From the IMG/VR virus record IMGVR_UViG_3300045282_000047, positions 1-36,690 of that record: DNA of 36,690 bases; one strand, written 5' to 3'. The position numbers were made by a program, and so were the translations under genes. Positions 9,205 to 27,106 of the stretch are shown here, one piece after another. The notes beneath the pieces were generated by a model. That model ran no database searches, was not told the DNA's origin, and saw only the letters and a list, made by a program, of their open reading frames with translations. The first letter of the stretch is position 1. The number at the start of each line of letters is the position of its first letter. This DNA comes from a virus.

Positions 9205-10335
9205 ATGAGCCTCAGATGTCAGTATTTCGGCCAGCCGTATGGCGAGACGGTTAGATACTACTGGCTCGATGTCCGATTCCCGTGTTGTCTCGGACCTCTA
9301 TACGGGCCAATTGGAGTCGTCACCTCGGAAAATCTCGATCAGAACAATGTCGTCCTCTGTCAATGGGACGCGGAGCCTGGGGCGACGGAGTATTACCTTC
9401 TCCAGACAGAGGAATCTCAAGTTCCAGGGTTCCAGGAGATGTGCTTGGTTCGCAAGACGGGCGCGACGTCGTATTCTGATGATGGACAGCAGTTAACTCA
9501 GTACCCGGATGACAAGAGGCCGCTCCGACCTACGCCAGGGACGCCAATCGAAGTCGCCGTCACGAGGCCTCTTCACCGCCCAGATCGACGCCAAGGTGAT
9601 CCTGACAATCGTCGTCAACCTCCAGCTCCTCTTGAAGATCAGAAACGCCCGGAGCATCGAGTCTCTCAAATCGGAGTTCCTGTCTCGAATTTAGAACATC
9701 CAGACAGGCCGAATCCGCTGCTTCACGATCCGTCGAAAGATAGGGCTGATCAACTTCAGGCTCAGACTCAGGAATACGCGCGCGATTCTGAGAAGCTGCC
9801 TCAACAGCCGGGAAGAGTCAGTCCCAGAGCAGGCCAGGGCGGGGCGCAGCATGAGACTGCGTCGGAGCCACGGACGGAACAGCCGATACACCCGGAGGTC
9901 GCCAAGCACCCTCCGACAACGATGGTTCCTAATCCTGCAAAACCTGGCGCGCCCCCGAAACCGTCAGAGCCGGGCGTTACTGGCTCGGGGCCAGTTTACG
10001 ACCCGAGGCAAGGGCAGCAAGGGCAATATGATCCGAGGCAGCATCAGACTGGGTCGAAACCGGGCGGGCAGGGACCGGGAATGACACAAGCTCAGCCTCC
10101 TCCGGGGCCAGCCTCCAGACCTCCAGCGCCGCCTCCGTTTAGGATGCCTGAATCTGCGAAGAAGCAACCGCAGCCTCAGCCGCCAGAGCCGAAACCATCT
10201 GAGCCGCCGAAGGGTCCTCCGAAGCAGCCACCGGGACAACAGCCGCAGAAACCTCAGAGACAAGAAGACCAGAGATCTGGACCGACGATCCCGAATCCTT
10301 ACGCCCCGAAGTCCACTGAAAACAAAAGCTCATGA
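9205..10335 (+). CDS. Fibronectin-III-like domain with long Pro-rich tail, 376 aa
   Basis: Residues 1-105 form a beta-sandwich-like domain of the fibronectin III type: YYWLDVRF, then LDQNNVVLCQWDAEPGATEYYLLQTE, typical of phage fibre N-termini. The same domain opens the next gene, so the two proteins probably share a docking site. Residues about 110-376 are disordered and rich in Pro, Gln, Lys and Arg (PKPSEPPKGPPKQPPGQ and similar). It may be an adaptor or a structural linker on the tail. GGAGGGAGCC precedes the ATG, and the stop overlaps the fibre start (ATGA). Confidence 0.7.
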   Translation: MSLRCQYFGQPYGETVRYYWLDVRFPCCLGPLYGPIGVVTSENLDQNNVVLCQWDAEPGATEYYLLQTEESQVPGFQEMCLVRKTGATSYSDDGQQLTQYPDDKRPLRPTPGTPIEVAVTRPLHRPDRRQGDPDNRRQPPAPLEDQKRPEHRVSQIGVPVSNLEHPDRPNPLLHDPSKDRADQLQAQTQEYARDSEKLPQQPGRVSPRAGQGGAQHETASEPRTEQPIHPEVAKHPPTTMVPNPAKPGAPPKPSEPGVTGSGPVYDPRQGQQGQYDPRQHQTGSKPGGQGPGMTQAQPPPGPASRPPAPPPFRMPESAKKQPQPQPPEPKPSEPPKGPPKQPPGQQPQKPQRQEDQRSGPTIPNPYAPKSTENKSS

Positions 10336-13300
10336 TCGTCGCGGAGTATTACGGAAAATTCGGAAGCACGACGAGGTATTACTGGCTCGTAGCCCAGTTT
10401 GCCTCGTCTGCTCCTGTTATCTTCGGACCAGCCATCGTTCAGACGGTAAATCCCCTAGATAACAACAACCGAGTCCTTCTCAAGTGGGACTACGTTCCAG
10501 GATCGACGTATTACAGCGTAGTCCAGACACCAAATTCAAATCCGCCTAACCTTCAGAAAGATGTCGTGGCCGCGATAGTCTCGACTACGACGGTTCATCA
10601 CGCGACTGACTTCGGAGTCATTCAGGACTGGTATTATCCATCTCCAGGCGTTGCCGGTGGTGGCGCAATCGGGGTAACTAGCGTATTTGGCCGGACAGGC
10701 CAAGTACTCGCGGTCACCGGGGATTACGATGTTACCCAAGTCACCGGGGCCGTCCCGCAGTCTCGTCAAATCGTCGCGGGCCTCGGCTTAAACGGCGGCG
10801 GCTCCCTTGCGAGCAACGTCTCAATAGCAGTTACGCCGGATACGACGCTTCAGAAGTCTAGTATTTACAACAGCGGCGTCCCGATTGGTCAGAGATCGAC
10901 TCTGAATCTCATCGGAGGCGCGGCGCTCACCATCTCGGTAGCCGATAATCCTGGGCAGAACTGGATTGACGTAGTATTCTCATCGAAAACTGGTTCCGGT
11001 TCAGGCCTAGTCGACCCGACGGTAACCAAGGGAGACTTAATCGTAAACAACGGGACTCAGGTAGTCCGATTACCGTCAGGTCCGAATGGTCAATACCTGA
11101 TAAGCGACTCCGCTTCGCCATCTGGGATCAAATGGGGCGGCGGAGCGTCTCAGTCACCTTGGCTGTCGGATATCAACGCTGCACAGTTCAGGCTTTGGAA
11201 TCTCGGATCTCTTGAGTTCAGGTCACAATCCTCGCTAACTGCGACCCCGATAGTCCTCTATGACGGATCTTCTTACATAAACCGAATACTAACTAACGGC
11301 GATCCTACGACTCCAGGCATCTTTATAACTCAGAATTACGGATACTCGAATGGATTTGCTAGAGATGATCCGTCTAAAGGGGGTACTTCAATCAATTTGC
11401 TGAGGACCGAAGGGGAATATGACAATCTAGGCTCCTTCATCTTAAGCATTGATGATATCAGGAATTCCGGCACTTATTCGAACAGAGTTCTCCAGTTCTC
11501 TGCTGCACAATCGGATCTTCAGCTATTTGAGCAGAATCGGCCAGCGCCTTACGCCGACTCTATGGCCCCGAGCCTCTCCTTCAGAGGTAATGCATCCACT
11601 GGTAGCAAGGTCAAGTCTTCTATAACGAGCTACCCAGGGTCGAGTAATATCTCAATTGCGGCGCGCAGGGACTACAACGCGTCTAATGGAACGCCAGACC
11701 CCGGCACTATATCAACGACTTTAAGGATAAGAAATAACGGCACCGCGGCCTTATTCGCGACGACTGATCTAGGCGGAATAGATGTCGGTGCGGATACCAT
11801 ATTCTGGTTCGATTTATCGAATAAACGTCTCGGGATCGCGAATAGGACTCCAGGCTACGCCATTGATGCAGTCGGTGATATAAACATCACGGGAGTCTAT
11901 CGAGTTAACGGCGTCCCCATCTCAACAGGTGGCGGCGGAGGGATGACGGACCCGACGACAACTAAGGGAGATCTGATAGTTCACGGCGCGACGACGACTC
12001 GGCTAGGAGTCGGATCTGATGGACAAGTTCTAACTGCTGATTCTGCTCAGACTCTTGGCGTCAAGTGGGCGGCAGGCGGCGGAGGAAGTAGTCTTAGTAT
12101 CTCTGACGAGGGATCTTCGATCGGAGCCGCGACGGTATTAAACTTTATCGGGGCGGGAGTAACGGCAGCCTCAGCGGGTGGCGGGACGATTAATGTCACG
12201 ATACCGGGAGGCGGCGCGGGATCGCAGACGCCGTGGACCTCCGATATCGACGCAGCTGGATTCAAACTGAATAACGTCGGGACTATTGGCATCGGGTCGA
12301 ATGCGATTCCACAAGCCAAGCTTTTGGTAACTACAAATCCAGCGGCTCTTCCACAAGCCCCTGCGGGAACGCTTATACAAGCAGCCGGATCAGACTCTGG
12401 AGTGCCGCGTATCATGGCGGATGCTTGGTTTGCGACCCCGACCTTCGTAGGTCGCGCCGCACTTGGAACATCGGCTGCCCCGACAGCGATTAGCGCGGGG
12501 ATAAGCATGGCCTTGTTCGGAGGGCTTGGACGTGGCAGTGCATCATACTCGACGCAAAGCCGCGGCCATATGCAGGTAATGGCGTCTGAAACTTGGACAG
12601 ATAGCGTGCAAGGCACTTATCTGACCTTCTACACGACTCTGAACGGAGGCACGACGACTGCTGAGAAAGTGCGGATTGATAACGCTGGCAACGTCGGAAT
12701 AGGAATAACCAATCCGACCGAGAAGTTGACACTGGGCGGTACGCGCCCCGCTATTCTGTTCGACGGCGGTTCGACGGCTCGGGGCCGAGTTCAGCAGATG
12801 ACCGTTACCCCAGGAGTCGGCATCTTGGCGAATCTGACTTACGACGGCGCCGCCTTTCAGCGAGATGACATCGCTCAGGCAGCGAGTGTGCTGACTATCG
12901 GAGCGAGTAGCATGACGGTGCGTTATGCCCCCGCAGGCGCAAATCCAGCCACGACGACGACTCCATTCACGTTCGACTCGGCGAACTCTAAATTTGGCGT
13001 CGGAATAGCCCCAGCAGTTGTTGGTCATTTTTATAGCCCAGGAACTTGTCAAATCAGAAATGAGTCCGTCGCGGCAGGGGCTGTATCAGCCCTTGAACTA
13101 AAAGTAGATAATCATCAATGGCAGTTGGCTGGTGGAGGATCTACCAGTGGACTCAACTTCTTTTATCTGTACGACTCTACAGCCGCTGCTCATAGACTAC
13201 AGATAAATAACGCAGGCAATTTCATATACTCTTGCCCTAATGCATGGTCAGGGGACGCAAATCTATTCAATAGCTCGATGTCTTTGTGGATAAATGAAGG

Positions 13301-13373
13301 CTCTAACCTTCTTAACATTAGGGTCAAATACGCTAATGGAACTTCAAAGGGTGTTACACTTACCCTATCTTAG
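10332..13373 (+). CDS. Tail fibre protein, 1013 aa
   Basis: Domain order: an N-terminal fibronectin III-like domain (1-105) homologous to that of the preceding gene; a VFGRTGQVLAVTGDYDVTQV module (about 118-230) typical of phage fibres; two copies of a TKGDLIV...LTADSA...VKW repeat (about 228-270 and 545-580), each followed by PW(T/L)SDI(D/N)AA; then beta-rich shaft with a GNVGIGITNPTEKL motif before the tip. The C-terminus ends LLNIRVKYANGTSKGVTLTL without an obvious self-cleaving chaperone. It would form the trimeric receptor-binding fibre. Coupled to its neighbour by ATGA. Confidence 0.85.
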   Translation: MIVAEYYGKFGSTTRYYWLVAQFASSAPVIFGPAIVQTVNPLDNNNRVLLKWDYVPGSTYYSVVQTPNSNPPNLQKDVVAAIVSTTTVHHATDFGVIQDWYYPSPGVAGGGAIGVTSVFGRTGQVLAVTGDYDVTQVTGAVPQSRQIVAGLGLNGGGSLASNVSIAVTPDTTLQKSSIYNSGVPIGQRSTLNLIGGAALTISVADNPGQNWIDVVFSSKTGSGSGLVDPTVTKGDLIVNNGTQVVRLPSGPNGQYLISDSASPSGIKWGGGASQSPWLSDINAAQFRLWNLGSLEFRSQSSLTATPIVLYDGSSYINRILTNGDPTTPGIFITQNYGYSNGFARDDPSKGGTSINLLRTEGEYDNLGSFILSIDDIRNSGTYSNRVLQFSAAQSDLQLFEQNRPAPYADSMAPSLSFRGNASTGSKVKSSITSYPGSSNISIAARRDYNASNGTPDPGTISTTLRIRNNGTAALFATTDLGGIDVGADTIFWFDLSNKRLGIANRTPGYAIDAVGDINITGVYRVNGVPISTGGGGGMTDPTTTKGDLIVHGATTTRLGVGSDGQVLTADSAQTLGVKWAAGGGGSSLSISDEGSSIGAATVLNFIGAGVTAASAGGGTINVTIPGGGAGSQTPWTSDIDAAGFKLNNVGTIGIGSNAIPQAKLLVTTNPAALPQAPAGTLIQAAGSDSGVPRIMADAWFATPTFVGRAALGTSAAPTAISAGISMALFGGLGRGSASYSTQSRGHMQVMASETWTDSVQGTYLTFYTTLNGGTTTAEKVRIDNAGNVGIGITNPTEKLTLGGTRPAILFDGGSTARGRVQQMTVTPGVGILANLTYDGAAFQRDDIAQAASVLTIGASSMTVRYAPAGANPATTTTPFTFDSANSKFGVGIAPAVVGHFYSPGTCQIRNESVAAGAVSALELKVDNHQWQLAGGGSTSGLNFFYLYDSTAAAHRLQINNAGNFIYSCPNAWSGDANLFNSSMSLWINEGSNLLNIRVKYANGTSKGVTLTLS

Positions 13374-13384
13374 AAAGGATAAAG

Positions 13385-13768
13385 ATGGCAGACAGAGCAG
13401 TATCAGAACATGGATTAACAGACTTCTTCGCCGATATGCTCGAAGGCGAGCCGTTCTATGGCGAAGGATATCAGAATCCTTACGCACCGGAAAATCCCGA
13501 CTACGTCATCATGCCGTCGGGATATGCTATTCCAACAGATTACTGCAAATATACGTTCAGCAACGCGTATAAATACGGCTGGGCTAAGCAAGCCGGAGTT
13601 TCGTCTGAGGAGTACTTGCTGAGAAACTGCGCCTATGGTGAGCAATGGGTCGTAGACGGCTGGGATCATAAGTCTTACGATCCGCGCACGGGCAAAGTTG
13701 ATACATTAGAAGAAGGTGGAGGAACTGGGCTTCCTTCTCCGAGTCTCTATCCGTATTACACCTACTAA
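13385..13768 (+). CDS. Tyr-rich hypothetical protein, 127 aa
   Basis: Not recognised. The protein is rich in Tyr, Gly and Pro (PFYGEGYQNPYAPENPDY, KYTFSNAYKYGW) and has two isolated Cys pairs that do not form a metal site. AGAAAGGATAAAG precedes the ATG, and the stop overlaps the next gene's ATG (TAATG). Its place directly after the fibre suggests a fibre tip accessory, assembly factor or receptor-recognition subunit, but this is positional inference. Confidence 0.6.
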   Translation: MADRAVSEHGLTDFFADMLEGEPFYGEGYQNPYAPENPDYVIMPSGYAIPTDYCKYTFSNAYKYGWAKQAGVSSEEYLLRNCAYGEQWVVDGWDHKSYDPRTGKVDTLEEGGGTGLPSPSLYPYYTY

Positions 13769-15978
13769 TGAGACAGATTCTCTTAGCTTCGACCGTACTA
13801 ACACTATCGGCTCAGATCGTGCTCCCTCCGGGAGTGACACTGCGTCCAGGCCAGCAATATCAGTTCTACGGAAACTGTCCCGGCAAGACGTGCCGGTTCG
13901 AGCTTGGTCTTGGTCACGATCGGACGTCATCGATCACCGTCGATGGACTGTACACAGCGCCGTCGTCGGCGGTGCCACGGTCGAAGCTCGGAGGATGTCC
14001 AGTGATGCCGTTGTCCTCGATATTCAATACGAAGATCACTAGCTTGCCAGTCGATCCGAACTCCGTCGCGATGATAAATCAAATCGTGTCGCGCGCCATA
14101 GGAGGGACTGGGACGCTGCATTTGACCTCGACTGGACCGTTAGTCGTTCCAGTAGACGACGCGACTCAGAAAGTCTTCTTGCAGAGTTATTACAAGAATC
14201 TCGGCACTGGATCATGGCCTTTGGGGACTCCGCCGTACCTGCGCGTTGGCTCCAAGGATCGCCCGAAGGCCATGAACCAGACTGGCTGGCGAATTCTAGG
14301 CATCGATAACAGAGTCATGGAAGTCGATGTGAATAACTGTAATAGTTATGAGTACTACTTCTCCGGGTCGATCGAAGACGCGCTCGAAAATCCTAAGTTA
14401 TCGCCAGTTACCAGCAAGTTATCGAATATCTCAGCCTATAGCGTTCTGAACACAATGGACTGGGATAATGCACTAAATAAGCCTGTAGGACTAAACGGAA
14501 GCGCAAACGCCTCCGGAATGTGGCATCAGCCACTTCAGCTAGACGTTGATGAGCTAATGCAGAGCGTTGACAAAGACGGCGCGAATGCAAACTTAGGTCA
14601 TCTAATTGGATTTACTCTCCCGAACGTGAATATTCGCCCTTATAGCTCCGGAGACAGACGCTGGCCTGCCATCCTCTGGGCAGGAGGCTATACGGATGGC
14701 CTTGTGCCTTATGGGACGAGATTCAGATTAAAGCAGACGTTCGTCGATGCCTTTCCTTACGCGCAAGCCTGCATAACGGCTGGAACTACAACTGGTATCG
14801 GCATCATATCGCAGCAACGCTGCCAGAATGCCATTCGGGGAATCTTCAACACGATCAGAGACTATGGCGTGATCATGATGGACGGAACTAGTACGTCAGA
14901 CTCGGGCGGCATGCACGTCAGGAGTCATGGTCGATATGACCCGGACTGGTTCGCCGCGGCATGGGCATTTAGTCAGTCTAAGGCTAGAGGTTGGGGCAAC
15001 GCGCTCGCCTCTTTAGAAGCGGTGAACGAGCAGTCTCTGATGGTCGATTTAAAATCGAACATGGTCAGAGATCCGATTGCGAATCCAGAAGTCGTCCGCT
15101 ATGTTGACATCACGAATCCCACGGCGCCGAAAGTCTTAGACGTGCGCGATATCATAGTTTATCCTCCGACGGTCGGAGTACTCGCTAACCAGTTCAGCGT
15201 CGTCGCTGGATCAGGACCGCTTGATCTCAAGTACCGAAATGTTTGGGCCACCGGATTCAAGGATAACTCTGCGATCACCTGGACGATCGTTTCCGGTCCC
15301 GGTACCGTCAGCGACGGCAAATATCTTGCTCCGAAGACTCTAGTATCTCCAGCGACGACTATGGTGCGCGCCTCGCACAGCGAAGATACGGGCCAATACG
15401 CGGACATCAGGATCGTCAATTTCCCGGCGGTCGGAAATGGACTCTGCATCCGTCTCGCCGCGTCTCAGCCCGCGAACGTGAAGGACAAGCTAGGTAGGAC
15501 ATGCTGGAACTTCGACGACGTGAAAGTCCAGGTCAATCCTTTCGGTACAGTCTTGCTGGGCAACCTCAATCAAGTCGTTTCTCAAGACCCTGCGTTTCCG
15601 AACGGCGGAGTTTGGCGTTCAGGAGTGAATACTGAACAGATGGCGCATTTTAGTCTCCCCAATGGCAAATACAAGGTCAGTGCGCTCGTAGTCACGCCAT
15701 ACGGGAACCCGTTGAGTTCGACCACGCCTTATGATCCGGCGGTAGTTGCTAACAGCAATACGATTGACATCAACGGTCAGATGGTATTCGGGCCGCAGAA
15801 TATGTTGCGCGTGATCGGAGCGCCGAATACAGGGAAAACTGTGCCTCTTACGGTAGACATAAAAGGCGGAGATATGATTTTCGGCTGGAGAATCGAGGGT
15901 AAATTCGGTGGTGCGGCTCCGTATCTAGCTGGAATCCTGATTGAGAGCACTACTACTCGACGACGGAGAACAAGATGA
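13768..15978 (+). CDS. Exported Ig-like/malectin-like protein, 736 aa
   Basis: The N-terminus MRQILLASTVLTLSAQIVLP has the charged start, hydrophobic core and small residue (Ala15) of a Sec signal peptide. Next come a short Ig-like segment (TVDGLYTAPSS), a large globular region opening with CPVMPLSSIFNTKITSLPVD (about 75-465) and containing YGTRFRLK and YGVIMMDG motifs, a second Ig-like domain (about 470-555, with SDGKYLAPKT), and a C-terminal malectin-like carbohydrate-binding domain (about 560-730). This layout resembles secreted Acidobacteriota proteins, so acquisition from a host is likely. It might be a tailspike, or a protein exported by the infected cell. Both ends are coupled to neighbours. 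Confidence 0.7.
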   Translation: MRQILLASTVLTLSAQIVLPPGVTLRPGQQYQFYGNCPGKTCRFELGLGHDRTSSITVDGLYTAPSSAVPRSKLGGCPVMPLSSIFNTKITSLPVDPNSVAMINQIVSRAIGGTGTLHLTSTGPLVVPVDDATQKVFLQSYYKNLGTGSWPLGTPPYLRVGSKDRPKAMNQTGWRILGIDNRVMEVDVNNCNSYEYYFSGSIEDALENPKLSPVTSKLSNISAYSVLNTMDWDNALNKPVGLNGSANASGMWHQPLQLDVDELMQSVDKDGANANLGHLIGFTLPNVNIRPYSSGDRRWPAILWAGGYTDGLVPYGTRFRLKQTFVDAFPYAQACITAGTTTGIGIISQQRCQNAIRGIFNTIRDYGVIMMDGTSTSDSGGMHVRSHGRYDPDWFAAAWAFSQSKARGWGNALASLEAVNEQSLMVDLKSNMVRDPIANPEVVRYVDITNPTAPKVLDVRDIIVYPPTVGVLANQFSVVAGSGPLDLKYRNVWATGFKDNSAITWTIVSGPGTVSDGKYLAPKTLVSPATTMVRASHSEDTGQYADIRIVNFPAVGNGLCIRLAASQPANVKDKLGRTCWNFDDVKVQVNPFGTVLLGNLNQVVSQDPAFPNGGVWRSGVNTEQMAHFSLPNGKYKVSALVVTPYGNPLSSTTPYDPAVVANSNTIDINGQMVFGPQNMLRVIGAPNTGKTVPLTVDIKGGDMIFGWRIEGKFGGAAPYLAGILIESTTTRRRRTR

Positions 15979-17012
15979 GAAATCTTTACGGTACACTAGT
16001 TCTGACTGCGGCCCTTACGAGTTGCTATCGTCCTGCTCAGTATGCTCCTAGCGCGAGCGGCTTTCTGCTGGCAGCGGATTATGGAGTCAAGTGTGATGGC
16101 AGCACTCAGAACGCCACGCCTCTACAGAACGCGATCAACGCGGCGGGGACGACGCATAGGGCACTCTATATCGAGGCCGGGACCGGAGTCTGTTGGTTCA
16201 ACACTACCCTAACGATCAACGCGAATAATGTAATCGTGCGAGGTATAGGAAGACCTACGCTCTCTTACACGGGCAACGGCTCCGCGATCACCATTGGTCA
16301 GCCCTCTAGCGTCGTCTACCAAGCGGAATTGAGTGATCTAATCATCAGCTTGGAGAACGCAGGGACATCGGCCATTGGCATCACTGAGGTAGCCACTCGT
16401 AACTCAGTCGTAAGCAATGTAGAGATTAAGACAGGGCAGGGCCGCGCCAATTCGATCGGACAGACTGCTGTAAAGATAGACGGCACGGGATCATTTAGCG
16501 CGATGAACGATTTCAATTCCGTCTACATCCACGGGGATTTCACGACAGGTTATCTGATAACCGGAGCGAACAGCTTTAACTCCACGAACAGCACACATAT
16601 CATCAGCGGAGGAGTCTTCAACACGGCCACGAACAAGGGTGGCAGTATCGGTATCCGCGTGCAGTTCGGGGACACGACTAGAGTCACGCATACGTCGGTG
16701 GAAAACTGGGGAACGGGCATTCGCGTCGAGTCTAACTTTAACGGACCATTCAGCGGACGCTTTGAAAACAACGTCATGGACTGGGAAGTAACGCAGGGAG
16801 TAATCAATACTTCGTTCACTGGCGGAGTATTCTCAGAGCATACCGATAAAGGCACTGGAACGGCATTCACGTCCAACGGCTCGGAACTGAAGACTCAAAT
16901 TGGTGATACTCTGTACATCCCGGCTCTTAAGTCTAAAACAGGAGTTCGATCAGTCTGTATAGACTCGACTGGCAAGCTGACATCGCAGACCGGAGCCTGC
17001 AACGGCACCTAA
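15975..17012 (+). CDS. Lipoprotein-type right-handed beta-helix protein, 345 aa
   Basis: The N-terminus MRNLYGTLVLTAALTSC has a lipobox (L14-T-S-C17), so the protein could be lipidated and anchored outside the inner membrane. Then FLLAADYGVKCDGSTQNATP is the typical opening of the pectate-lyase/tailspike superfamily, followed by beta-helix rungs to about residue 310 and a C-terminal VCIDSTGKLTSQTGACNGT cap common in phage and acidobacterial proteins. Possible roles: tailspike depolymerase that has kept a captured signal sequence, or a surface lipoprotein that blocks receptors or superinfection. No catalytic residues can be assigned by eye. Coupled to the previous gene by ATGA. Confidence 0.75.
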   Translation: MRNLYGTLVLTAALTSCYRPAQYAPSASGFLLAADYGVKCDGSTQNATPLQNAINAAGTTHRALYIEAGTGVCWFNTTLTINANNVIVRGIGRPTLSYTGNGSAITIGQPSSVVYQAELSDLIISLENAGTSAIGITEVATRNSVVSNVEIKTGQGRANSIGQTAVKIDGTGSFSAMNDFNSVYIHGDFTTGYLITGANSFNSTNSTHIISGGVFNTATNKGGSIGIRVQFGDTTRVTHTSVENWGTGIRVESNFNGPFSGRFENNVMDWEVTQGVINTSFTGGVFSEHTDKGTGTAFTSNGSELKTQIGDTLYIPALKSKTGVRSVCIDSTGKLTSQTGACNGT

Positions 17013-17019
17013 ATAAATT

Positions 17020-17277
17020 ATGACTGAGAACAAACAATTAGACCAAGCTGCAATCGAAACGATAGCGGATTTGAATTCTCAGATCCGAGCACTAAACGTG
17101 GCTAAAGAAGCAGTTCTAGTCTACTATCACAAGCAGAATAAGCTAGTCATAGGAGAATGGAATCTTGCGGAAAATCAACAGGAGCTTATAAAACGCAATG
17201 GGACCTCAAATGCCGCAGATGCCGCAGCCGCCGCAGATGCCGCAGGTCACGCAACCCGAAGCACCTATCCAGAATAA
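17020..17277 (+). CDS. Conserved small phage protein, 85 aa
   Basis: The first 60 residues (QAAIETIADLNSQIRALNVA, then KEAVLVYYHKQNKLVIGEWNLAENQQELIKR) form a helical domain of a type I have seen next to portal genes in other podoviruses, without known function. The last 25 residues are Ala/Asp-rich low complexity (NAADAAAAADAAGHA) and come from reading the portal gene's CCGCAGATG repeats in another frame: the two genes overlap by 80 nt. The ribosome site is weak. It lies 7 nt after the preceding gene. Confidence 0.6.
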   Translation: MTENKQLDQAAIETIADLNSQIRALNVAKEAVLVYYHKQNKLVIGEWNLAENQQELIKRNGTSNAADAAAAADAAGHATRSTYPE

Positions 17278-19492
17278 CGAAGATCTCCCTGAGAATCTTC
17301 AGAATGTTCTGAAGGACCTTGTACGTCAGTACGAGCATGAGGACTCTTGGGTTCGTAAACAACAACTGAAGCTGTGGAAGAAGAATGAAGAGTTTTGGCA
17401 CGGCATTCAGTTCATCTTCTGGTCAGAGTCTCGTCAAGATTGGGTATCCCCTGCGGAAACTAAGTGGACTGGTCAAGAGGAGGGTCGAGAAGAGGCTGAG
17501 GGACCATTTTACGACTTTGTTATCAATATCTATAAGGCTCACGGAGAGTCTGTTATCGCAGCTCTATCGGCTGAGGTACCGTCTGTAAGATTCCCGCCCG
17601 ATGATGCTGAAGATGAGGACGATCTAGTAACCTCCAAGACCTATGATAAGATAGCAGATCTGATCCAGAGGCATAACAACGCTAAGATGACGTTGTTGCA
17701 AGCCTTGTTCACCCTCTGGAATCAAGGAATGGTTTGCGCTTATCACGCCCCAAAGGCTGATAAAGCGTTTGGAGTAGTCGAAATACCGCAATATACTCGT
17801 TCTAAGTTCTGTGAGTTCTGCTCAAAGCCTGTTGCAGAGCCAATGTCTGAGTCTGTGCCGCCTTCACAGGATCAGATGACTGGGGCTGCGCCTCCTGTCC
17901 AGAGTCCTCCTGGTCCAACTATGCCAGGAGCGCAGCCTCAAGTACCTCAAGAGTCTTGTCCAGACTGCGGAATGCCAGTGACCGAACGTCCGGTGATCAC
18001 AGGATATTCAGAGTCGCCGAAAACTCGGGTCGTTTGGGAACTTTACGGACCGATATTTGTTCAAGTCCCATTCTACGCGCGCGATCAGAAGGAGTGTGGA
18101 TATCTCTTACTGAAGAAGGACTTCCCTGTAGCCTTGCTCCAGAATCTCTACCCTCATATGGAGGATAAACTTGAGCATGACACGGCTGAGGACGCGGAAT
18201 ACGAAAGATTCACACGAAGCCCTTCGACTTTCTCTAGCTATTCGAGAATTGACGAGCGTCGTAATCTGAGGGCACTTAAGAGAATCTGGTTCCGGCCCTG
18301 GGTATTAGACGGACTGAGCAAGGAATTTGAGTCTGAAAAACAACAACTCAAAGAGATGTTCCCGGATGGAATATATTGCGCTTTTATTGGCGATAATTAT
18401 GTGGAGTCTCGTAATGAAGATGTTGATAAGTATTGGACGGTAGGCAAATGTGGTTTGTCAACCTTCATTCACTGCGATCCGTTGGGACAACCTCTGATTT
18501 CGGTTCAGGAGTTGAGAAACGTCTTAGTTAATCTAGTACAGGAGACTATAGAGCATGGTATTCCATCGACTTTTGCAGATACCGAGGTTCTCGACTTCGA
18601 CACATATTCTAGGCACGAAGCAAGACCCGGCATGGTATTCCCTGTGGTTAGAAAACCAGGTGAGGCTATCGCTGACGCATTCTACGAGTCTTCTCGTGCA
18701 ACCGTCTCTAAAGAACTCGGGGCCGTTTGGAAGCAATTGGATCAAGACGGTCAGTTCGCCGTAGGCTCTTTCCCGTCGATCTATGGAGGGCCATCCGAAG
18801 GCAAAACTCGTACTGCCTCAGAGTATAACAGCTCTAGGCAGATGGCTCTTCAACGCCTCTCGATTAGCTGGTCATACGTCGTCCAATGGTGGACCAAACT
18901 AATCGAGAAGTCCGTGCATCTCTTCGTCGAGAACGTCGTTGCTGACGAGAAGTATGTAATTAAAGAGAATAACAACTATATCAATATCTGGATCAGACAG
19001 GCTGAGATGACTGGTAAGGTCGGTGACGTGGAGCCTGAAGGCTCGGAAATGTTCCCGACTACGATCATGCAGAAGCAGGATCTCTTTATGAAACTGCTAG
19101 GACTCAATGATGACATGATTAAGTCCGTCCTCTTCGATCCAGAGAATCGTCGAATGATCGCGGACATCTTAGGCGACCCGAATCTTTACGTACCTGGGGA
19201 AGATCAGAGGATCAAGCAGGCGCGCGAGATTCAGATGATGATTAAGACTAGCCAAGTTGTCCCGATAGAGACTGCGGTAGATGACGACGATGTCCATATA
19301 GGGGCGCTGAAGAACTTCATGGTCGGCGCGGTCGGTCTTGATCTGAAGATGACCAATCCGCAGGCGTATCAAGCTCTAACTCAACACCTTCAGATGCACC
19401 AACAGAATCAGATGATGCAACAGATGCAACAAATGCAGGCTCAGGGTCCGGGAGACGGACAGCCTCAACCACAGGAGACTCCAAATGGCTGA
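17198..19492 (+). CDS. Portal protein with zinc-ribbon insertion, 764 aa
   Basis: The portal dodecamer forms the DNA gate at one head vertex. Support: a DSWVRKQQLKLWKKNEEFWHG region like those of podovirus portals, residues about 450-600 (LVNLVQETIEHGIPSTFADT, then RTASEYNSSRQMALQRLS) matching the conserved core, and position before scaffold and capsid genes. Unusually, residues 205-257 carry CEFC (C205, C208) and CPDC (C254, C257) separated by a Pro/Gln-rich linker, a split zinc ribbon. The N-terminus has MPQ repeats and the C-terminus is Met/Gln-rich (QQNQMMQQMQQMQAQGP). AGGAG lies 13 nt before the start, so an ATG at 17210 is an alternative. Confidence 0.85.
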   Translation: MGPQMPQMPQPPQMPQVTQPEAPIQNNEDLPENLQNVLKDLVRQYEHEDSWVRKQQLKLWKKNEEFWHGIQFIFWSESRQDWVSPAETKWTGQEEGREEAEGPFYDFVINIYKAHGESVIAALSAEVPSVRFPPDDAEDEDDLVTSKTYDKIADLIQRHNNAKMTLLQALFTLWNQGMVCAYHAPKADKAFGVVEIPQYTRSKFCEFCSKPVAEPMSESVPPSQDQMTGAAPPVQSPPGPTMPGAQPQVPQESCPDCGMPVTERPVITGYSESPKTRVVWELYGPIFVQVPFYARDQKECGYLLLKKDFPVALLQNLYPHMEDKLEHDTAEDAEYERFTRSPSTFSSYSRIDERRNLRALKRIWFRPWVLDGLSKEFESEKQQLKEMFPDGIYCAFIGDNYVESRNEDVDKYWTVGKCGLSTFIHCDPLGQPLISVQELRNVLVNLVQETIEHGIPSTFADTEVLDFDTYSRHEARPGMVFPVVRKPGEAIADAFYESSRATVSKELGAVWKQLDQDGQFAVGSFPSIYGGPSEGKTRTASEYNSSRQMALQRLSISWSYVVQWWTKLIEKSVHLFVENVVADEKYVIKENNNYINIWIRQAEMTGKVGDVEPEGSEMFPTTIMQKQDLFMKLLGLNDDMIKSVLFDPENRRMIADILGDPNLYVPGEDQRIKQAREIQMMIKTSQVVPIETAVDDDDVHIGALKNFMVGAVGLDLKMTNPQAYQALTQHLQMHQQNQMMQQMQQMQAQGPGDGQPQPQETPNG

Positions 19493-23128: not shown

Positions 23129-23491
23129 ATGGCAAATGCTGCTGTTACAGATACTGCTACGACCAATAGCACGGTCGGAGGTCTTCAACATATCTACGGA
23201 ACCCTTACGATCGCTGCTAGCCCCGACGTCTATGTCTCTGGAGGACTCGCTGTAGACTTCTCCGGAAATCTAGTCAAGGCCACGAGGCCTCCAATCTGGG
23301 TCGACTTCACCAGCGCCAATGGCTACTACTACGCTTATGTTCCTGGGACAAGCATCCTGAACGGAAAGATTAAGATCTCTGTTACCGGATCTGCTAGTAC
23401 TCCGATGACAGAGATAGCGGCCTCGGCTATTCCGGCTGGAGTCAGCGGCGACGTGGTCAGATATCACGCGGTATTCGTTGGGCAAAACTAA
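23129..23491 (+). CDS. Putative head decoration/stabilisation protein, 120 aa
   Basis: A small beta-rich protein (ATTNSTVGGLQHIYGTLTIA, then SPDVYVSGGLAVDFSGNLVK) that resembles decoration-type or other small structural proteins in capsid modules. There is no signal peptide or TM segment. AGAAAGGAAAGTT precedes the ATG, a strong ribosome site that fits high expression. The stop and the next ATG overlap (TAATG). The role is inferred from size, fold type and position. Confidence 0.5.
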   Translation: MANAAVTDTATTNSTVGGLQHIYGTLTIAASPDVYVSGGLAVDFSGNLVKATRPPIWVDFTSANGYYYAYVPGTSILNGKIKISVTGSASTPMTEIAASAIPAGVSGDVVRYHAVFVGQN

Positions 23492-24165
23492 TGTCACTAG
23501 CTTCAGTCGCACTCGCATCTGCTCGGGAGTACATGAACGACTCAGCGGGTCAGTTCTGGACCGATGCTGTCCTGATGCCGAAGCTTCAGGAAGCTCATCG
23601 GCAGATGCAAGTGCGCCTCCAGTTAGCGGGGATTCCGGTTATCAAGACGGTTAGTACCGTCTTAACCGTTCCGGCGCGCACGACTGACTTGACAACTGTA
23701 GCCGGATATCCTGCTGACCTTGTCGAGCCTAAGTGGTTGAAGTCTCGAAATTCAGGACAGAGAAATTCTGACTTCGTTGACATGACTCAGTGCGATTACA
23801 TACCAAACTGGGACATGGGGACATCGCTGGGCTGGTGGTGTTGGCAGGGTGAGAAGATTCTCCTTCTCGGATCAACTATAGCTAAGGAGGTTCAGCTTCG
23901 TTATGTCAGAGGATTGGCCGTCCCGACTACAGCAGGATCTAGCCTTGGCTTCATCTATGCTGAAAACTTCCTTGGCCCGAAGACTGCAGCACTTGCGGCA
24001 ACTGCTACAGAGAATGCATCAGCGGTTCAAGAATGGGCAGCGGAGGCAGAGAAAGCCTTGACGGATATCATTAGAATGAACATCCGCGGCTTGCAGAATC
24101 TCCCGGCTAAGAGACAGGCCTATCACAGAGGAAGACACGGCGCGCACGCCCTTAGAGGTAGTTGA
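23491..24165 (+). CDS. Head-tail connector (adaptor-like) protein, 224 aa
   Basis: The N-terminal helices (LASAREYMNDSAGQFWTDAV, then LMPKLQEAHRQMQVRLQLAG) and the central DLVEPKWLKSRNSG segment have the pattern of podovirus connector proteins that bind below the portal (P22 gp4 / T7 gp11-like role). The order after capsid and before the tail hub gene supports this. The C-terminus is Arg/His-rich (KRQAYHRGRHGAHALRG). No homology search was possible, so the specific family remains open. Confidence 0.65.
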   Translation: MSLASVALASAREYMNDSAGQFWTDAVLMPKLQEAHRQMQVRLQLAGIPVIKTVSTVLTVPARTTDLTTVAGYPADLVEPKWLKSRNSGQRNSDFVDMTQCDYIPNWDMGTSLGWWCWQGEKILLLGSTIAKEVQLRYVRGLAVPTTAGSSLGFIYAENFLGPKTAALAATATENASAVQEWAAEAEKALTDIIRMNIRGLQNLPAKRQAYHRGRHGAHALRGS

Positions 24166-26151: not shown

Positions 26152-26699
26152 AGTTCACTGGCGAGCCTCGAATCAATTTGCCAGGGGCTACTCCGACGTT
26201 CGATAAGACTCCTGTAGCCAAGGGGCGCATTCCCTCAGTTAACACTGATTTCATAACGATGGTGAGTCGGAAGATGCCAGCTCTAGTCGAGCCTGTCATT
26301 CTCTTGACGATGAAAGCCAATGCGATAATAAATGGTGTCAATCTGAGGACGATGTATCATCACGTCCTCGTCATTCATAATTTAGTTCCGAGAGATAACG
26401 CTTGCGCTAATCTTCCGATGCGAATCGCAGGGACGACGCTGATAGTTCATGGCACGACCCGGTATGCTTTGATCAAAGATTTCAATCTTCAGATAAATTG
26501 CTTTGCACCGAGTTACACTGGAGTCCTGATGAGCTATATAATCCCGAATACTACTAAACCAGGTATCCTCGTAACAAAGTCTCATGTAGTCCTAGCTGAC
26601 GTTGATGATCTAGCAGTTCTAACATTTGATATTAAAACTGGAGATTCAGCATCTGAGCCAGATGGTCTAATATCCTTGGCATTTGAATGGACATCTTAA
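26148..26699 (+). CDS. Virion-module hypothetical protein, 183 aa
   Basis: Not recognised. It is beta-rich in the middle (VEPVILLTMKANAIINGVNL, then RIAGTTLIVHGTTRYALIKD) and reads like a jelly-roll or sandwich fold, without signal, TM or metal motifs. It lies between the tail hub and the GNAT-like gene and is coupled on both sides (ATGA upstream; 13-nt overlap downstream). A tail or minor head component is plausible. Confidence 0.6.
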   Translation: MKFTGEPRINLPGATPTFDKTPVAKGRIPSVNTDFITMVSRKMPALVEPVILLTMKANAIINGVNLRTMYHHVLVIHNLVPRDNACANLPMRIAGTTLIVHGTTRYALIKDFNLQINCFAPSYTGVLMSYIIPNTTKPGILVTKSHVVLADVDDLAVLTFDIKTGDSASEPDGLISLAFEWTS

Positions 26700-27106
26700 C
26701 AACTCCGATTGAAATTCGGGACATGATTGATGAGGAACTTATTAAGGAGTTCCCGCGGGACTTTCCGTTCCCCGATCTCGAGAGTCTACTATATTTCTCT
26801 CGCAAAGAAGTCTTAATGAATGGCCGCGTCGTGGCAGCTGCATTCATGAGACTGACTAGTGAGGCCATCTTGATACAGGCTCCGGACTTGCCAAGAGCAT
26901 CCCGTGCGAAAGTCTTGATGGCCCTCACTGGTGAGATGGATCGAGAGCTTGAGAGATTCGGACTGGACGATGTCCACGTGTTCATCAGCGAACCTGAGGT
27001 CGCTAAGACTGTCACGTTTTACACCAAGAGGCTTGGCTTCATCAAAGTCAGCGGAGTGCCTCTGATGAGGAGGTTACATGGCGAAGAAAGAACAGCAAGA
27101 AGCTAG
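26687..27106 (+). CDS. GNAT-like acetyltransferase fold protein, 139 aa
   Basis: The pattern fits the GCN5-related N-acetyltransferase fold: beta strand GRVVAAAFMRLTSEAILIQA, an ARVKVLMALTGE-type helix (SRAKVLMALTGEMDREL), strand VHVFISEP and the closing FYTKRLGFIKVSG, which is the usual last motif (xxxYxKxGFxxxx). The usual acetyl-CoA loop (Q/RxxGxG/A) is not evident: the corresponding PRASRAK lacks the glycines, so it may not be an active enzyme. GNAT-like genes do occur among podovirus ejection genes. It overlaps both neighbours. Confidence 0.65.
   Translation: MDILTTPIEIRDMIDEELIKEFPRDFPFPDLESLLYFSRKEVLMNGRVVAAAFMRLTSEAILIQAPDLPRASRAKVLMALTGEMDRELERFGLDDVHVFISEPEVAKTVTFYTKRLGFIKVSGVPLMRRLHGEERTARS

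Follow-up and report, generated by a model that had tools for sequence, protein, structure and literature searches.

The gene pair and its surroundings

The window, meaning the whole stretch of DNA analyzed here (36,690 nucleotides), is the IMG/VR virus record IMGVR_UViG_3300045282_000047, positions 1 to 36,690. Between a large fibre-like gene (10332-13373) and a portal-like gene (17198-19492) lies a pair of genes, called here gene 1 and gene 2, whose predicted products begin with signal peptides. The features of the locus are listed below with the basis of each assignment.

10332-13373, plus strand: conventional fibre-like gene, 1013 aa, signal-free, 2 Cys; neighbour of the pair (ORF listing)
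13768-15978, plus strand: gene 1, predicted exported protein of 736 aa with 8 Cys in its mature part (ORF listing)
13768-13812, plus strand: signal peptide of gene 1 (MRQILLASTVLTLSA), Q16 being the first residue after the predicted cut (own heuristic; homologue in contig L002)
13969-14784, plus strand: central domain of gene 1, residues 68-339, conserved Cys C77 and C191 (BLASTP to a bacterial exported family)
15085-15945, plus strand: C-terminal beta-rich region of gene 1 (judged by eye only, without a profile match)
15975-17012, plus strand: gene 2, predicted exported protein of 345 aa, probable pectate-lyase-type beta-helix (ORF listing, phmmer, Cys count)
15975-16022, plus strand: signal peptide of gene 2 with a possible lipobox LTSC, C16 (pattern match only)
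16092-16193, plus strand: Cys pair of gene 2, C40 (KCDG) and C73 (GVCWF), helix cap (comparison with the L132 spike and signal-free spikes)
17198-19492, plus strand: portal-like gene (assigned by position and size; the query that drew 28 relatives)

The gene order of the window is a terminase (phrog_979), several genes including the 1013-aa signal-free fibre, the pair, and then portal-like, scaffold-like and capsid-like genes. These last three labels reflect position, size and general appearance, with no profile match. Genes 1 and 2 overlap by 4 nt (ATGA at 15975), and the start of gene 1 overlaps the stop of an upstream 127-aa gene (TAATG). Because of this coupling, the start codons that give both proteins their signals are supported.

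Other features of the window were observed. Gene 1 ends in an unusual basic tail, TTTRRRRTR (15948-15977), directly before gene 2. An FNIII-like N-terminus is common to the adjacent genes at 9205-10335 and 10332-13373 (phmmer E 5e-13) and may serve the signal-free fibres as an anchor; short proteins related to it were found in loci L003, L007, L011 and L018. A small gene amid the late genes (26687-27106) looks by eye like an acetyltransferase, with no PHROG match; the late regions of the phages Tunturi 1-3, described below, likewise have annotated acetyltransferases.

Signal peptides and the possible lipobox

Signal peptides were called by our own heuristic for n-, h- and c-regions, not by SignalP. 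By this heuristic, each of the two N-termini runs from a short, positively charged n-region through a hydrophobic stretch to a predicted cleavage site, which lies between MRQILLASTVLTLSA and QIVL in gene 1 and between MRNLYGTLVLTAALTS and C in gene 2. The full pattern was found in only two of the approximately 40 ORFs of the window, and these are gene 1 and gene 2. The ORF at 23491-24165 gave a looser form only, without a positive n-region. A previous sequence-only reading of this DNA had described two coupled genes with N-terminal Sec signals, and the ORFs, their 4-nt overlap and the signal pattern bear this out. The lipobox that it named, LTSC, is a possible one and occurs in gene 2 only, where four residues downstream of the hydrophobic stretch match [LVI][ASTVI][GAS]C. 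Among the homologues found, none has a lipobox.

A homologue of gene 1 was found on a 4.4-kb phage contig (L002), directly downstream of a different terminase. The two proteins share 84% identity over 334 residues, and the TTG start of the homologue overlaps an upstream stop. In this comparison of two sequences the signals differ in their letters and agree in type and junction (MIYTLIAAIAASALSA followed by QIVLPPG in L002, MRQILLASTVLTLSA followed by QIVLPPG in the window). The signals thus do not look like relics and appear to be maintained, as the signal was kept in L002 although the segment had diverged.

Folds and origins of the two proteins

Gene 2 probably encodes a pectate-lyase-type beta-helix, as the sequence-only reading had proposed. 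It has the motif YGVKCDGST...LQNAINAA, as in helices of this type, and matches a 669-aa spike encoded at locus L132 (phmmer E 5.6e-8), the only relative of gene 2 found. Weak tblastn matches were to phage proteins, one of them annotated as a pectate lyase. Pfam, PHROG, NCBIfam and PDB sequence searches gave no usable match, and AlphaFold2 gave a pLDDT of 33.

The L132 spike consists of a signal, a virion-anchor domain and then the helix. In isolates such as PBR31 and P26218, the tailspikes begin with this anchor domain, which starts there at residue 1. It has two Cys in L132 and zero or one in 63 signal-free relatives. Among its closest relatives no other signal-bearing member was found, and a pattern search with the Cys pair returned L132 alone, so the virion-anchor case is that of one protein. 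At the N-termini of gene 1 and gene 2 no virion-anchor domain was recognized. In gene 2, C40 (in KCDG) and C73 on the following strand are both kept in the L132 spike, and the position of C40 is Gly in the signal-free spikes compared. Two or more helix-cap Cys are present in all three signal-bearing helices versus one of nine signal-free helices. The helix-cap and L132 counts are small numbers that point in the same direction as the general cysteine test described below.

For gene 1, the Ig-like and malectin-like domains proposed earlier, which correspond to the beta-rich region at 15085-15945, were not confirmed. Searches of Pfam, PHROG, NCBIfam and PDB sequences with the 736-aa protein returned no match, and an AlphaFold2 model built from two sequences had a pLDDT of 28. 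Residues 68-339 match an exported Streptomyces protein (WP_159395844.1) with 28% identity and an E of 2e-11 in a two-sequence BLASTP comparison; in a plasmid collection search the same match had an E of 0.02. With gene 1 alone as query, no bacterial homologues were found in genome contigs; with the domain alignment as query, two actinobacterial loci were found, including one of Kitasatospora (L172). Gene 1 shares its central domain and two conserved Cys with this bacterial family and differs from it in adding other regions. A family member on a plasmid of Streptomyces sp. 3211 (L171, 2665-3894) carries the motifs GCPV.P..SI and PPMGLRLRLKA; the phage member has no Pfam or NCBIfam match.

The suggestion of capture from a host is supported for the central domain of gene 1 by this homology to bacterial secreted proteins (28% identity, Streptomyces), and its further part, a recent capture with relic signals, is contradicted by the evidence given below. 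ORF17 of the Tunturi phages has CHB_HEX_C/Fn3_assoc domains, typical of bacterial secreted enzymes. Judging from gene 1 and this ORF, the bodies of the signal-bearing proteins seem to be drawn from bacterial secretomes.

Signal-bearing fibres in portal relatives

With the portal-like protein as query, 28 related contigs were found. Many of them encode, beside the portal, unrelated large fibre-like proteins that have strong signals. The genes sit between the portal-like and scaffold/capsid-like genes. Their bodies contain GDLSGTYPNP or collagen-like repeats, or pectate-lyase helices (in L023, Pfam PF12708, E 1.7e-12), and the body in L024 matches annotated tail fibres of Methylophilales and Synechococcus phages. 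The pair had been read as a local oddity; it is one instance of a broader class of fibre/spike-type proteins that bear signals. Its membership is based on location, signal, cysteine pattern and, for gene 2, the fold motif.

In nine portal relatives, the first signal-bearing gene has a related segment of about 60 aa after the signal in many pairs, forming two sub-groups. The bodies of this gene are near shuffle level in nearly all pairs, with L023/L030 as a clear exception. A conserved N-terminus with swapped bodies is the usual evolution of virion receptor-binding proteins. Near-complete relatives with signal-bearing genes also carry smaller signal-free fibre-like genes. One close relative (G006, loci L165-L167) has no signal-bearing fibre and two very large signal-free fibre genes, of 1596 and at least 1150 aa. 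L030:12327 has Cys but no signal, and for this reason we rejected the idea that signal-free relatives always lack Cys in the post-signal domain of the portal clade.

Unrelated lineages and cultured phages

Several unrelated podovirus lineages, soil phages among them, carry members of the class, which are made alongside their late genes. When viral contigs were scanned for the motif GDLSGTYPNP, 98 fibre ORFs with complete N-termini were returned, and signals were present in 15 of these versus 38 of 743 other ORFs. In the late operons of two contigs, all large fibre-type genes recognized bear signals: 669, 513, 735 and 2489 aa in G011 (43.7 kb) and 655, 401 and 365 aa in G012 (40.9 kb). No large signal-free fibre was recognized on either whole contig. 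The 2489-aa fibre-like protein of G011 (loci L262-L264 joined, 29984-37453), in a phage late operon, has 78 Cys.

Cultured isolates have the same pattern. Tunturi 1 and Tunturi 2 (PP887698 and PP885685) are podoviruses of Tunturiibacter, Acidobacteriota (PMC11924767). In both, ORF12, ORF13, ORF14 and ORF17 are large fibre/spike CDSs with signals; in Tunturi 1 their mature parts have 20, 10, 20 and 32 Cys, respectively, and ORF16 is an odd exception with one mature Cys. No conventional or other large fibre-type gene was recognized in these two phages, and no portal homology to the window was detected. The main text of the Tunturi paper makes no mention of signal peptides (PMC11924767). Tunturi 3, 4 and 5 infect the same host genus, and their fibres (first 50 kb) are signal-free with few Cys, which argues that export depends on the phage rather than being imposed by its host. 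The earlier hint of an Acidobacteriota-like layout agrees with the cultured phages Tunturi 1 and 2.

Cysteine parity

Functional signals would place the folding of these proteins in an oxidizing compartment, and paired cysteines would then be expected. Fibre-like ORFs of at least 150 aa were collected from the loci and clustered by BLAST, and cysteines were counted in the mature parts. Among signal-bearing clusters the count was even in 35, odd in 4 and zero in 2 (binomial p=1.7e-7; median 1.73 Cys per 100 aa), and among signal-free fibre clusters it was even in 48, odd in 67 and zero in 40 (median 0.51), in a fibre-like set chosen by our own composition thresholds. Thresholds and cleavage rule were altered between versions of the test; an earlier, cruder version gave the same direction (36 even and 5 odd). 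Within the portal clade alone, the signal-bearing counts are 13 even versus 1 odd. The pair is even in both members, with 8 mature Cys in gene 1 and 4 in gene 2, the latter in addition to the possible lipobox Cys. Only the signal-bearing proteins show this excess of even counts, which is what export followed by disulfide bonding would predict.

Comparison with known systems

Podovirus tailspikes and depolymerases (P22-type modular; Xanthomonas phage PBR31, Rhodoferax phage P26218) share with the class the pectate-lyase-type helix motif of gene 2, the N-terminal anchor domain of L132 (PBR31, P26218), a late-gene position and, in the relatives, a conserved N-terminus with variable bodies. The known spikes compared begin at the anchor domain with no signal, whereas the signal-bearing proteins have a signal in front and extra cysteine pairs. 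Tunturi 1 and 2 share with the class their arrays of signal-bearing, Cys-rich fibre/spike CDSs, annotated as tail fiber, tail spike/pectin lyase and virion structural protein.

Superinfection-exclusion lipoproteins of the T5 Llp/Cor type are also phage-encoded and exported, and one member of the pair is possibly lipidated. Llp itself is small and periplasmic, contains a disulfide and binds to the plug of FhuA (PMC9586334). The pair differs in consisting of large fibre/spike-type proteins (345 and 736 aa, with a possible lipobox in one only) rather than a small lipoprotein beside a receptor-binding gene. Signal-bearing endolysins (fOg44 Lys44, SAR endolysins) are phage proteins exported by Sec before lysis (PMC6116005). 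They share Sec export with the class, but are cell-wall enzymes for lysis and not fibre-type proteins.

Probable export, possible docking and alternative explanations

The signal-bearing fibre/spike-type proteins appear to be Sec-exported and disulfide-bonded. Export with disulfides is the best-supported part of the interpretation, and export as such is highly probable. Between the two earlier options, export during infection is favored over relic signals by the L002 divergence, the unrelated carriers and the paired cysteines. In the proposed mechanism, the proteins would be translocated late in infection by the host Sec machinery and then cleaved, the gene 2 product perhaps being lipidated. 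They would be oxidized and fold with disulfides in the periplasm. At lysis, the exported proteins would meet virions and become glycan-binding or glycan-cleaving receptor proteins. The parts of this mechanism that we infer are the actual export, the disulfides, the glycan target and the docking at lysis. On balance, it is slightly more likely than not that this explanation holds, with the pair Sec-exported, disulfide-folded and part of a recurrent class of fibre/spike-type proteins.

For the class, docking to virions is the leading guess, held with slightly less than even confidence. It is favored because Tunturi 1 and 2, G011 and G012 have no other recognized fibre genes and because L132 has an anchor domain. 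For this pair docking is rather unlikely, the estimate being lower because the window also has a signal-free fibre. No precedent was found for exported spikes joining cytoplasmically assembled capsids.

The main rival to docking was already suggested by the sequence-only reading. The proteins may be exported and never present on virions, acting on the infected cell surface or its surroundings as secreted glycan-binding proteins or depolymerases. Their roles might be receptor blocking, slime shedding or preventing the adhesion of progeny to debris, and in function they would then resemble superinfection-exclusion lipoproteins. This reading is held with well under even confidence. Signals, cysteine parity and the possible lipobox of gene 2 would suit it, as would the secreted-enzyme domains of Tunturi ORF17; the bacterial secreted origin of the gene 1 central domain is equally compatible with an exported protein that acts free. 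As signal-free fibre-like genes are present in this window and in several relatives as well, virions need not carry the exported pair. Against free action stand the phages and contigs with no other recognized large fibre-type gene (Tunturi 1 and 2, G011, G012), the virion-anchor domain retained in L132, the combination of a constant N-terminus and exchanged bodies, a hallmark of receptor-binding proteins of virions, and sizes of 345 to 2489 aa, far above those of Llp-like exclusion proteins.

It is improbable that the signals are relics on recently captured host proteins that stay cytoplasmic and assemble normally. The host-like domain of gene 1 and the virion-type domains in L132 and L024 are compatible with this, but the signal persists in the diverged L002 homologue, signals recur on many unrelated fibre-type proteins, and an even-cysteine excess specific to signal-bearing proteins is not expected of relics. 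Even less probable is that the hydrophobic N-termini are a virion part, for example one that inserts into the host membrane at infection. Such an N-terminus on a fibre-type protein could act in delivery, but Sec export is indicated by the charge of the n-region, by the cleavage motif, which in most has Q at +1, and by cysteine parity. Very little weight can be given to a pattern created by contaminating host DNA or wrongly called starts: IMG/VR contigs are uncurated and gene 1 would lose its signal if it began at the GTG at residue 18, but cultured isolates have the pattern, the genes lie between portal-like and scaffold/capsid-like genes in relatives, and both in the window and in L002 the starts overlap the stops of preceding genes.

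Implications

The textbook view is that a tailed phage is assembled entirely within the cytoplasm, a picture that would change if fibre/spike-type proteins are indeed exported. In the literature searched, outside which most subscription journals lie, no report of signal peptides on tailed-phage fibres was found, which is weak evidence of novelty. Tentatively, receptor-binding spikes of several tailed-phage lineages may be Sec-exported, acquire disulfides in the periplasm and dock to virions only once lysis has brought the two compartments together. For annotation, a fold alone does not make a virion protein, and a signal alone does not make a host gene. Tunturi 1 and Tunturiibacter are a cultured phage-host pair in which the question is testable now. 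If docking at lysis is true, the assembly of a tailed phage would span two cell compartments; alternatively, phages may secrete a class of large proteins that act at the surface of the infected cell.
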